Shown here piece by piece: positions 14,543 through 17,925 of a stretch of 64,000 nucleotides of DNA. Every line of letters begins with the position of its first letter. The first letter of the stretch is position 1. Origin of the DNA: Candidatus Sulfopaludibacter sp. SbA3 (lineage in GTDB: Bacteria > Acidobacteriota > Vicinamibacteria > Vicinamibacterales > UBA2999); assembly GCA_945903265.1 (NCBI GenBank), contig CAMDNQ010000004.1, positions 1 to 64,000 of the forward strand, read 5' to 3'. The notes under the pieces were generated by a model that did not search any database, was not told where the DNA came from, and was given only the letters and a program-made list of their open reading frames with translations. The position numbers and the translations under genes were made by a program.

Positions 14543-15181
14543 TTATGTCCGGGGCACGTAGTAGCGCGTTCCGCGGTTCATCGTCCTGATCTGCCGGAGC
14601 AGATCGTCAACCGCCGCGTCGCTCGCCGACAGATCGACCTGCGAGGTCTCGACCACGAGCAGGGGCGTGGCGGCGTAGTGGAAGAAGAAGTGCTGATACG
14701 CCTCATTGAGCTCGCGGAGATAGTCGGCCTTGGGTGGCGGCTCAGGTGACTCCTGTTCCCTCGACCGATCCCGAAGGCGCCGGATCAGGACGTCGGTCGG
14801 TGCCTGCAGGTACACCACGAGATCGGGCGGCGGCACGTCGCGCACGAGCAGGTCGTAGAGGCGCTGGTAAATGAACAGTTCGTTGTCGTCAAGGTTCAGG
14901 TAGGCAAAGATCTTGTCGCGATCGAAGACGTAATCGGAGATGGTCGCCTGCGCGAACAGATCGCCTTGCCGCAGTGTGAGCTGCTGACGATGACGGCTGA
15001 GGAGATAGAAGAGCTGGGCCTGCAGCGCGGCGCCTGCGCGGCCCGCATAGAAGTCCGCCAGAAAGGGATTGTCCGCTTCTTCGAGGACGAGCGCAGCATC
15101 CAGCCGCGTCGCGAGCCGTTCGGCGAGCGACGTCTTGCCGACACCTATCGGACCTTCGATAGCGATGTACTGAAATGACAT
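14543..15181 (-). CDS. Deoxynucleoside kinase (deoxyadenosine/deoxyguanosine kinase type)
   Basis: About 212 residues. P-loop '[16 protein letters not shown]', the substrate motif 'EEADNPFLADFY', the 'DYVFDRDKIFA' segment containing a DRD-like motif and the lid 'RRLRDRSREQE' match the dNK family, which phosphorylates salvaged deoxynucleosides. It is the first gene of the minus-strand run through folC, lptD and the sugar genes. It is divergent from the cyclophilin lipoprotein gene with only about 50 bases between the two starts; a TAGCAT box on the minus strand near 15213 may be its -10. Confidence 0.9.
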   Translation of the reverse strand: MSFQYIAIEGPIGVGKTSLAERLATRLDAALVLEEADNPFLADFYAGRAGAALQAQLFYLLSRHRQQLTLRQGDLFAQATISDYVFDRDKIFAYLNLDDNELFIYQRLYDLLVRDVPPPDLVVYLQAPTDVLIRRLRDRSREQESPEPPPKADYLRELNEAYQHFFFHYAATPLLVVETSQVDLSASDAAVDDLLRQIRTMNRGTRYYVPRT

Positions 15182-15215
15182 GCAGCGTGAGCCAGGAACG
15201 CCGGTGGGTGCATGC

Positions 15216-15221
15216 TATCAT
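15216..15221 (+). promoter_or_regulatory. Probable -10 box of the HEAT-cyclophilin gene
   Basis: TATCAT lies ten bases before the ATG at 15232. A start six to seven bases downstream would leave a leader of only a few bases. No -35 element or Shine-Dalgarno sequence is evident. Confidence 0.4.
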
Positions 15222-15231
15222 CCGCGAAGAA

Positions 15232-17388
15232 ATGCGTTGGGCAGTAGGCATTTTTCTCTTCGCAGCCTCTTTCACTGCAACGTCCGCCTGCGCAACAATT
15301 CCACCGCCGCCTCTTGAACCGCCTCCCGTCAGCTGGGACGACAAGATGCGGTGGATTATCCGGCTGGAGGATCAGCGCATCCTGCGCGATCCGAATCCTG
15401 CGCCTCCCGTCGTTCTCGTTCCTGCCACCCGCACGCAGCCGGCCGTCGTGGCGCCGCCGCTTCCGTCGGATCTGATCCGGCTGCTGGCTGACGGCGAAGC
15501 ACGTGTGCGCCGGCGCGCCGCGCTGGCGGCCGGGCGCGTCGGACTGCGTGAGGCGGTCGATCCGCTGACACCGCTCCTGACGGCCGATCCCGAGCCCGAC
15601 GTCCGGGCGATGGCGGCGTTCGCGCTGGGTCTGATCGGCGACGCCGCCGCGCGCCCGGCGCTCCTCCAGGCGCTTGCGGATGCCGACCCGGTCGTCCAGG
15701 GACGCGCTGCCGAAGCGCTGGGCGCGATTGCCGACCGTACAGATGCGACCGCCGTCGCCCAGATGGTGCAGGCCCACATCAAAGCGGGCGCGCTGGCGTC
15801 GATCCAGCCAGACGACCTGACGTTTCCACTCGCCCCACCGGTCGAGGCGGTCCGTCTCGCGATCTATGCGCTCGTGCGGCTGGGGTCGTACGACGCGCTT
15901 GCGGCCACCGTCCTCGAGACGAACGGACAGCCGGTCTCTGCCTGGTGGCCCATCGCCTACGCGCTTCGCCGCGGGGGAGATCCGCGCGCGGTGCCGGCGC
16001 TGGTCACGCTGCTGAATACGCCCGGCCGCTACACCGCCGCATTCGCCGCGCAGGGTCTTGGCGCCCTGAAGGCGACGGGCGCGGCGACCCCGCTCCGTCA
16101 GATCGTCGAGCGCCGCACCGCCCCGACCGCCGTCGTCATCCAGGCGATGCGGGCGCTGGCGGCCGTCGGCGACGGGGCTTCCTCGCCGTTGTTATCCAGC
16201 ATCGTCGCCGACGCGGAGGGCGACGCCACGCTTCGACTCGAGGCCATGGCCGCGCTGTCGCAGGTGGCTACCGCGGAGAGCCTCGACCTGCTGCTCGACC
16301 TGGTCACCGACCCGCTGCCGGCGATGCGAGGCCTGGCGATGCGGAGTCTCGCGCGCCTCGATCCGGACACGTTTCTGGTCACGCTGTCCGGGCTGGATCC
16401 CGACCGGGATCCGGCGGTGCGGGCGGCACAGGCGGCGGCGCTCGGGTCGCTTCCCGATCGGCGCGGCGTCCCCGGGCTGATGGGATTGCTGGGGGAGAAG
16501 GACCACCGCGTCATTCCGGCGGTGCTCTCGGCGCTCGTGGCCGCGCGCGCACCCGAGGCGGAAGCCATCCTCATCGAGCGGCTCAAGGCAGACGACTTCG
16601 CGCTGCGGGCCGCTGCGGCCCAGGCGCTCCTGCAGCTGAAATCAGCCCCCGCCGTGCCGGCCCTGGTGGAGGCGTATCGCGCGACGACCGGTGACAGCAC
16701 CTATGTCGCGAGAGGCGCCATTCTGAACGCGCTGATCGAGCTGAATCCCACGGCCGCACAGCCGCTGCTGGAGGAGGCGTTGCGCGATCGCGACTGGGCC
16801 ATCCGGCAGCGGGCCGCGTCGGTCTTCAGGCAGCGCCCGGGCGGGGAGAGCGTGGAGGCGACGATTCGGCCGGCGCCGGCGGGCCGCGCCGTCAGCGACG
16901 CCGAACTGGGGTCGCTCATCAACCCGCAGTTTTCGCCCCATGCCTATATCGAGACCGACCGGGGCACGATTGAACTGGAACTGGCGATTCTGGACGCGCC
17001 GCTGACGGTTGCGAACTTCATTGCGCTCGCGCGCCGGGGGTTTTTCGACGGCATCGCGATCCACCGCATCGTGCCGGACTTCGTCATCCAGGACGGTGAC
17101 CCGCGGGGGGATGGCGAAGGGGGGCCGGGCTACACCATCCGCGACGAGATCAACATGCGGCCGTACCTGCGCGGCACACTCGGCATGGCGCTCGACTGGG
17201 AAGACACCGGCGGCAGCCAGTTTTTCATCACCCACTCGCCGCAGCCGCACCTCGATGGCCGCTATACCGTCTTCGGGCATGTCGTGGCGGGGATGGATGT
17301 GGTTGATCGGCTGATTCCTGGCGACGTCATCCGTCGCGTGCGTATCTGGGACGGCGTCACTGCCCCCAACGCCGCCCCCAACCCATAG
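15232..17388 (+). CDS. HEAT-repeat lipoprotein fused to a cyclophilin-type peptidyl-prolyl isomerase
   Basis: About 718 residues. A lipoprotein signal peptide (MRWAVGIFLFAASFTATSAC) places the protein in the envelope. Residues about 80-560 are tandem HEAT/PBS-lyase-like alpha repeats, for example 'VRAMAAFALGLIGDAAARPAL'. The C-terminal part from about 572 is a cyclophilin: 'GFFDGIAIHRIVPDFVIQDGDP' in segments and 'GSQFFITHSPQPHLDGRYTVFG'. The active-site pattern (R in 'HRIVPDF', QFFIT, H in 'PHLDG') is intact. It probably isomerises prolines in exported proteins, with the repeats binding substrates or partners. The ATG at 15232 is the start that gives an intact lipobox. Confidence 0.9.
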   Translation: MRWAVGIFLFAASFTATSACATIPPPPLEPPPVSWDDKMRWIIRLEDQRILRDPNPAPPVVLVPATRTQPAVVAPPLPSDLIRLLADGEARVRRRAALAAGRVGLREAVDPLTPLLTADPEPDVRAMAAFALGLIGDAAARPALLQALADADPVVQGRAAEALGAIADRTDATAVAQMVQAHIKAGALASIQPDDLTFPLAPPVEAVRLAIYALVRLGSYDALAATVLETNGQPVSAWWPIAYALRRGGDPRAVPALVTLLNTPGRYTAAFAAQGLGALKATGAATPLRQIVERRTAPTAVVIQAMRALAAVGDGASSPLLSSIVADAEGDATLRLEAMAALSQVATAESLDLLLDLVTDPLPAMRGLAMRSLARLDPDTFLVTLSGLDPDRDPAVRAAQAAALGSLPDRRGVPGLMGLLGEKDHRVIPAVLSALVAARAPEAEAILIERLKADDFALRAAAAQALLQLKSAPAVPALVEAYRATTGDSTYVARGAILNALIELNPTAAQPLLEEALRDRDWAIRQRAASVFRQRPGGESVEATIRPAPAGRAVSDAELGSLINPQFSPHAYIETDRGTIELELAILDAPLTVANFIALARRGFFDGIAIHRIVPDFVIQDGDPRGDGEGGPGYTIRDEINMRPYLRGTLGMALDWEDTGGSQFFITHSPQPHLDGRYTVFGHVVAGMDVVDRLIPGDVIRRVRIWDGVTAPNAAPNP

Positions 17389-17422: not shown

Positions 17423-17460
17423 AAAAAAAGGGGGCGCGCAACAGCACACCCCCCTTTTTT
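17423..17460. terminator. Bidirectional intrinsic terminator
   Basis: A GC stem (GGGGG...CCCCC with inner TGTGC/GCGCG pairing read on the minus strand) is flanked by seven A and six T residues. It therefore has a U-tract in either direction. It can end both the plus-strand cyclophilin transcript and the minus-strand microprotein transcript (17477-17527). Confidence 0.85.
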
Positions 17461-17476: not shown

Positions 17477-17527
17477 CTAACGCTTCTTCGCCGCCTTCTT
17501 CTTTCCGCCCTTTGCTTTCTTTGCCAT
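17477..17527 (-). CDS. Lysine-rich 16-residue microprotein, copy 1
   Basis: An open reading frame of 16 codons encodes MAKKAKGGKKKAAKKR. A G-rich Shine-Dalgarno-like AAGGGGGG lies about eight bases before the ATG, and an intrinsic terminator follows the TAG within about 20 bases. A second gene at 17753-17803 encodes exactly the same peptide. The two copies differ at five third-codon positions (codons 5, 8, 11, 12, 16) and in the stop codon (TAG against TAA), all synonymous, while flanking DNA is unrelated. That pattern indicates selection on the peptide. Nine of 16 residues are Lys or Arg, resembling the tails of histone-like or ribosomal proteins, so nucleic-acid binding is a guess. I know of no described family. 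Confidence 0.72.
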   Translation of the reverse strand: MAKKAKGGKKKAAKKR

Positions 17528-17707
17528 GCTGTTATCCCCCCTTTCGGTGGTCTGGATTGCGATCCGCACAATCACCCGGCGCACTCTGCCGCCTGGCACG
17601 TCGGCCCGGATATTTGCAGTCTCGCTTCGTGGGCTCGCGCGACGCGGAATGCGGCGGCGAGCAGCAACTCAGTTCGTAGGCGCATCCGGAATAGAAGTCC
17701 GGATATG
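17528..17707. other. Intergenic stretch between the two microprotein units
   Basis: About 180 bases with no convincing gene. It should contain the promoter and leader of microprotein copy 1 on the minus strand. I see no clear -35/-10 pair. A Cys-rich 66-codon minus-strand frame across it has no start signal and runs through the terminator of copy 2. Confidence 0.4.
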
Positions 17708-17735
17708 AAAAAGGGGTGCTCCTTCGGAGCACCCC
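17708..17735 (-). terminator. Intrinsic terminator of microprotein copy 2
   Basis: On the minus strand a nine-base perfect stem (GGGGTGCTC / GAGCACCCC) with a five-base loop is followed by TTTTT. It lies 17 bases after the TAA of copy 2, which makes that gene an independent transcription unit. Confidence 0.88.
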
Positions 17736-17752
17736 GTATCTCGGTCGAAGAA

Positions 17753-17803
17753 TTACCGCTTCTTCGCGGCTTTCTTCTTCCCGCCCTTGGCTTTCTTTGC
17801 CAT
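17753..17803 (-). CDS. Lysine-rich 16-residue microprotein, copy 2
   Basis: It encodes MAKKAKGGKKKAAKKR, identical to copy 1 at 17477-17527 but with different synonymous codons. A strong Shine-Dalgarno sequence GAGGAG stands six bases before the ATG. Upstream are a near-consensus promoter (TTGACA-16-CATAAT) and a leader of about 90 bases with a nested hairpin; downstream is an intrinsic terminator. The signals look like those of a well-expressed monocistronic gene. The peptide is highly basic with a Gly-Gly hinge at residues 7-8. The function is unknown; candidates are a nucleoid- or RNA-associated peptide. It is too short for routine gene callers. Confidence 0.8.
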   Translation of the reverse strand: MAKKAKGGKKKAAKKR

Positions 17804-17826
17804 TTTTTTCTCCTCAGGTTAAGTGA

Positions 17827-17872
17827 CTCAGCCTCCGACGGTCCGCTTGGCCGTCACAACGGGTGGGCTGAG
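17827..17872 (-). promoter_or_regulatory. Nested hairpin in the leader of microprotein copy 2
   Basis: An outer seven-base stem (CTCAGCC / GGCTGAG) encloses an inner hairpin (GACGG-CC / GG-CCGTC around a GCTT loop). It lies between the predicted transcription start near 17891 and the ribosome-binding site, so it may stabilise or regulate the mRNA. Confidence 0.5.
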
Positions 17873-17897
17873 CCATCCACCCTCATACCAGATGTAG

Positions 17898-17925
17898 ATT
17901 ATGGGTGAGAAATTTTTGATGTCAA
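17898..17925 (-). promoter_or_regulatory. Sigma-70-type promoter of microprotein copy 2
   Basis: Minus strand: -35 TTGACA (17920-17925), a 16-base spacer and -10 CATAAT (17898-17903). This is one of the best promoters in the window. Two further TTGACA hexamers lie upstream on the same strand (near 17950 and 17995), without good partners. Confidence 0.75.

Follow-up and report, generated by a model that had tools for sequence, protein, structure and literature searches.

A conserved twin locus for a lysine-rich microprotein behind structured leaders in Vicinamibacterales

Two short genes and their leaders

The window, as we call the whole 64,000-nucleotide stretch analysed here, carries on its minus strand two open reading frames, ORF1 (17753..17803) and ORF2 (17477..17527). 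The original prediction had described them as twin frames for an identical peptide, separated by five silent differences and a stop-codon difference, each with a ribosome-binding site and an intrinsic terminator of its own, and all of this was borne out. Both frames translate to MAKKAKGGKKKAAKKR, a product of 16 residues of which about half are lysine (8 Lys codons). We counted 5 synonymous and 0 nonsynonymous differences between them, with TAA as the stop of ORF1 and TAG as that of ORF2. The Shine-Dalgarno (SD) sequence of ORF1 is GAGGAG (17810..17815, minus strand) and that of ORF2 is GAAAGGGGGG (17536..17545, minus strand). Terminator 1 (17713..17735, minus strand) consists of GGGGTGCTC..GAGCACCCC followed by a T run and is conserved in family f1, and terminator 2 (17426..17458, minus strand) has a folding energy of -25.2 kcal/mol with a z-score of -5.9. 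The further statement that the flanks are unrelated holds for one copy compared with the other, but not in a wider sense, as each flank is strongly conserved among genomes. A hairpin at 17745-17766 on the minus strand (CGAAGAAGCGGTAATTCTTCG) covers the 3' end of ORF1 together with the stop, and a TTCTTC motif 3' of this stop is retained in most f1 loci.

Standard gene callers work with a minimum length that genes of 51 nucleotides do not reach. A degenerate pattern made from the peptide, allowing up to three mismatches, matched only two places in the 3.5 Mb genome, namely ORF1 and ORF2, and the reversed-pattern control gave no match in the same 3.5 Mb. Because the pattern is unique to these two places and recurs, strict as it is, in 34 of 162 genomes of the window's order, a chance origin can be excluded.

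Unit 1 is headed by a promoter (17898..17925, minus strand) with the elements TTGACA and CATAAT separated by a 16-nt spacer, matching the consensus at 11 of 12 positions; in f1 it hardly varies, if at all, and most families have a recognisable version of it. Between promoter and ORF1 lies leader 1 (17804..17897, minus strand), whose start site we infer near 17893-17890 and to which our covariance model R1 aligns in the window at 17798-17897 (E 4.9e-20). The leader is predicted to fold into an H-type pseudoknot. Stem 1 (17861..17882, minus strand) joins 17882-17877 with 17866-17861 as GGGUGG/CCACCC, and its loop contains the 5' strand of stem 2 (17873-17867, GCUCAGC), which pairs with GCUGAGC at 17826..17832 on the minus strand, 5' of the SD sequence. 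In an alignment of 59 leader-1 sequences, in which the SD sequence is also conserved, 92% of the cells were paired as compared to 29-47% for slid controls. Individually, stem 1 was paired in 88.7% and stem 2 in 94.9% of cells, with two pairs changed on both sides in each, and both of the crossing helices accordingly carry compensatory changes. As the sequences in the leader alignments are related, counts from shuffles are not to be taken as probabilities. The genera of f1 show almost no variation in the -10 region, at the start of leader 1 or in stem 1. Searched with the leader-1 covariance model, the order gave matches in 38 of 42 genomes, and the rest of the phylum in none of 354. In genus g75 of family f14, a near-identical unit-1 promoter and leader precede an ftsZ-like gene (loci L158 and L159 in genomes G124 and G128), and G128 retains an ordinary twin locus about 35 kb from this copy; leader 1 is captured here by a cell-division gene.

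Unit 2 is preceded by a region running from terminator 1 to ORF2 (leader 2, 17528..17712, minus strand) that contains conserved blocks in f1. When we sought a promoter-like site within 17528..17712, none was recognised. Since a recognisable promoter exists for unit 1 only, two independent transcripts are not demonstrated, and unit 2 may depend on read-through. The structured core of this leader (17574..17611, minus strand) comprises an outer helix, 17611-17606 with 17579-17574, around an invariant GUGCCAGGCGGCAG hairpin, and across 13 f1 loci the pairing of the outer helix is held through U-A, U-G, C-G and G-C types. This covariation is the only trace of structure, single-sequence folding of leader 2 being uninformative (z -0.1). 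The SD sequence of ORF2 is unusual, reading GAAAGGGGGG or GAAGGGGGGG. In 15 of 18 genomes of the order, the motif is found 5' of a start reading M(A/P)..KK. Outside the class, this combination matched six genomes, five at unrelated genes and one, in family f62, at a Lys-rich microprotein. Pairing of this SD sequence with an arm of terminator 2 (AAAGGGGG/CCCCCUUU) is possible, but was without covariation on inspection.

Conservation of the peptide and of the pair

To follow the locus beyond the strict peptide pattern, we used a 5' element, CATAATCTACATCTGGTATGAG, as a second probe with three mismatches allowed. It was present in 116 of 193 genomes of the class, covering all 15 families of the order, and the locus recurs in every family. 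Among the 31 class genomes outside the order there was a single match (locus L039, family f16), which we judged to be a chance match to the leader motif, as we did one in a Poribacteria bin (L117). At nearly all loci that we read, CATAATCTACATCTGGTATGAG is followed 3' by a Lys-rich ORF with a MAK start, mostly MAKK, and usually by two of them. The typical locus of the order encodes twin Lys/Ala/Gly peptides of 14-28 residues that start with MAKK and end with KKR. Thus, MAKKTAKGGKKKGGKKR is encoded twice in family f15, MAKKGGKKKGGKKR twice in f7 and MAKKTAKKATKKAAKKR twice in f4, and the twin of f14 consists of MAKKRKAAKKKKAAKKKGGKKR and MAKKRKAAKKKRKAAKKGGKKR. In family f5, a lone copy behind a fused leader is the rule, and family f8 has a single copy of 35-54 residues resembling an H1 tail. 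One f6 genome (L138) carries a third Lys-rich ORF, MAKKAAKKAAKKPAKKTAKKR, beyond the twin, 565 nt after the leader motif.

The original proposal, that selection acts on a tiny, highly basic peptide in a stretch normally passed over by annotation, would have been refuted by a lack of copies in relatives, by frameshifts or by replacement at the neutral rate, and it withstood each comparison. Copies are present in close and distant relatives, changes in peptide length stay in frame, and changes are mostly synonymous, with a pN/pS among similar pairs of 0.17 for unit 1 and 0.08 for unit 2. As far as sequence comparison can establish it, both ORFs are shown to be protein-coding and under purifying selection, and the order conserves with them the twin layout, the near-consensus promoter, both covarying leader structures, the SD sequences and the terminators. 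Together, the order-wide conservation and the structured leaders exceed what had been described initially.

The 161 peptides collected consist only of K, A, G, M, R, T, V, P and S plus three C/N residues, with 49% K, 27% A and neither D, E nor any aromatic residue, and 146 of them end in KKR. These counts are partly circular, as the ORFs were chosen for being K- and R-rich, and most of the loci compared share descent and are not independent. Some relatives (L144 ORF2, L271, L286) have Cys-containing C-termini, ..KKGCKAC or ..KKC, which could permit disulphide or metal links.

Why a genome should hold two copies is best approached through the 57 genomes with both ORFs. Peptide identity averaged 0.87 within genomes vs 0.70 for peptides of different genomes, and the within-genome value was never attained in 10,000 permutations. 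In 17 of the 57, the two peptides are identical, each pair differing by 3-8 synonymous codons. Codon agreement behaved in the opposite manner, being 0.77 for the same unit across genomes vs 0.64 for units 1 and 2 of one genome. Because peptides match within the genome and codons match within the unit, the copies are old, with codons that diverged separately and proteins that changed together. The same codon pattern speaks against recent gene conversion as the source of the peptide match. The pattern fits selection on the predicted shared product. RNA structure inside the ORFs, such as the hairpin over the unit-1 stop codon, could also keep the codons unit-specific.

The locus is flanked by a convergent gene (15175..17388, plus strand) that we read from its sequence as a HEAT-repeat and cyclophilin-type PPIase protein. 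We use it as a synteny marker that lies outside the mechanism; a homologue adjoins the locus in genomes G037 and G128. In families f16, f17 and f19 of sister orders, Lys-rich microproteins are likewise found near a PPIase homologue, in opposite orientation. Several of these are twin (MPAKKKARKKTAKKKTTKKKAAKKR and ...KKK), and those of f16 and f17 have a related leader start (e.g. CTACCCCTAGTATG) and an SD sequence in the style of the window's order. Further away, in another class, where the microproteins stand alone, family f62 encodes MAAKKKAAKKKATKKKK preceded by GAAAGGGGGGATAAAAGAGA, and families f59, f67 and f74 of that class have relatives of 19-23 residues with a promoter-like sequence and a terminator-like hairpin. 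Homology across classes cannot be proven, because the peptides are of such low complexity. The acidobacterial class of f62 also holds Lys/Arg-rich H1-like proteins of 184-274 residues (L262, L264, L265, L274), possibly long-form counterparts of the microproteins.

A polycation acting on nucleic acid, and its alternatives

Our best explanation, held with confidence no better than evenly balanced, is a two-unit gene pair for a polycationic microprotein that acts on nucleic acid, with binding and expression both inferred. The locus would be strongly transcribed, unit 1 would be translated behind its pseudoknot and unit 2 behind the different structured leader, partly via read-through of terminator 1, and one product would be supplied under two controls. 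Being about half Lys, free of acidic and aromatic residues, 14-54 residues long and of low complexity, the product is predicted to be disordered and to work through its charge, attaching to DNA, RNA or other polyanions regardless of sequence, in the manner of a free-standing histone-H1 tail or of a polyamine encoded by a gene. More speculatively, the pseudoknot might let the peptide or another signal tune its own synthesis. We expect charge to count over fold because of this composition and because length varies while the ends are kept. A nucleoid- or RNA-associated role, initially offered as a guess and still one, becomes likelier in view of the composition and of the H1-tail-like homologues of f8. 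The H1-like tail of AlgP has been studied for its association with DNA and polyphosphate granules (PMC9239181). By such analogy, we favour a counter-charge role, in which the peptide would coat or neutralise nucleic acid or another polyanion, a preference that may go either way.

Several points can be raised against this explanation, besides the partly circular composition counts and the shared descent of the loci. H1-like profiles do not match significantly, a 16-residue peptide may be short-lived in cells, and the near-invariant leader 1 could indicate that RNA is the main functional part. In that case the locus would produce a small structured RNA or a regulatory leader, with a short ORF that chiefly regulates or stabilises, as in a dual-function RNA. 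The constancy of the leader start and of stem 1 between genera, the short units with intrinsic terminators and the placement of a leader copy before ftsZ in g75 are what such an RNA would lead one to expect, whereas the strong purifying selection on the peptide, the protein changes paired within genomes and the existence, in sister orders and another class, of Lys-rich ORFs behind other leaders are not, and we regard it as unlikely. A tiny basic protein that is bound to the ribosome and inserted into rRNA, with the pseudoknot leader as autogenous control site, we hold to be quite improbable. The peptide is small, basic and apparently, by inference, strongly transcribed, and pseudoknot leaders are a known mode of autoregulation of ribosomal proteins, e.g. 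of S15. However, a low-complexity sequence ranging from 14 to 54 residues is unlike the ligand of a fixed rRNA binding site, and ribosomal genes are not located beside the locus. Neither a ribosome-bound peptide nor a function at the RNA level is excluded.

Attenuation, toxin and antimicrobial functions fit poorly. With Lys at eight of its 16 sense codons and an intrinsic terminator behind it, ORF1 resembles the leader peptide of a lysine-sensing device, in which terminator 1 would be the attenuator and unit 2 the regulated gene. Yet unit 2 yields an identical peptide, what comes next is the convergent PPIase gene rather than one for biosynthesis or transport, and families f8 and f5 have a single long ORF and a single unit, respectively; we consider this reading very improbable. 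The one candidate pairing for such a device that we inspected, between stem 1 and a terminator arm, is lost in f4, where stem 1 is changed and the terminator is not, and we did not adopt that particular pairing. It is hardly credible that the product is a secreted cationic antimicrobial or a type I toxin, even though it is short and cationic and has its own promoter and terminator: the peptides lack aromatic residues, Leu, Ile and a signal sequence, no antisense partner was noticed, and the locus is inherited vertically at one syntenic place across the families examined.

Returning to the polycation, a wider proposal can be made only tentatively, our judgement leaning somewhat against it. The microproteins would belong to an ancient, unannotated Acidobacteria family of gene-encoded polycations, or "protein polyamines", some 14-30 residues long, of which the Vicinamibacterales have a twin form, alike in protein under two structured leaders, one of these representing a new class of cis-regulatory pseudoknot that the peptide may bind. 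The locus is retained in nearly every good genome of the order examined, a group of mostly uncultured Acidobacteria. Should its product prove to be an abundant polycation, then a major soil phylum relies, for the charge balance of its nucleoid or RNA, on a component absent from annotations. In addition, both structured leaders are new, and the locus lends itself naturally to testing why two copies remain similar in protein when their control regions do not.

Comparison with databases and known systems

Scanned with Rfam at the gathering score, the locus had no match, the window's only one being a TPP riboswitch at 912-1004 on the plus strand (RF00059, 63 bits), and a permissive Rfam scan returned only chance-level matches, mostly on terminators. 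Protein profile scans were feasible for the longer relatives only. For these, Pfam gave nothing significant (HC2 at E = 2, with 8.9 bits against a cut-off of 40), and NCBIfam, including its H1-like models, gave E-values of at least 1.9. Literature searches for lysine-rich small proteins, Vicinamibacter small proteins and the peptide motifs yielded nothing relevant. Single peptide sequences may sit undescribed in the GMSC catalogue, since it predicts ORFs from 30 nt up (PMC11364881). Judged from its sequence record, the locus is a real, overlooked gene family. Its peptides are new as an H1-tail-like variant of polycation, but not a tested member of the H1 family; we do not claim membership because the profile test was not met.

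The closest resemblance is to H1-like proteins (Hc1/Hc2 and the tails of AlgP and PhaF), which share with the microproteins a richness in Lys and Ala, low complexity, variable length and expected disorder, the f8 peptides being similar to short H1 tails. In contrast to them, the microproteins stand alone at 14-54 residues, have Gly in place of most Pro, and are encoded by twin genes with structured leaders. The small basic ribosomal proteins bTHX and mycobacterial bL37 are likewise tiny basic peptides from short genes, but differ in that the microproteins lack a fixed length, conserved non-Lys residues and linkage to ribosomal genes. Like leader 1, the preQ1-II riboswitch and the rpsO/S15 leader place an H-type pseudoknot, with extra sequence in a long loop, just 5' of the SD sequence, whereas leader 1 matches no Rfam family. 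Finally, SgrS/SgrT and RNAIII/hld are, like the twin units, short, conserved and structured RNAs that enclose a tiny ORF and carry a terminator. The twin locus differs from both in giving no evidence of base-pairing in trans, and in encoding one peptide in two tandem units whose leaders differ.
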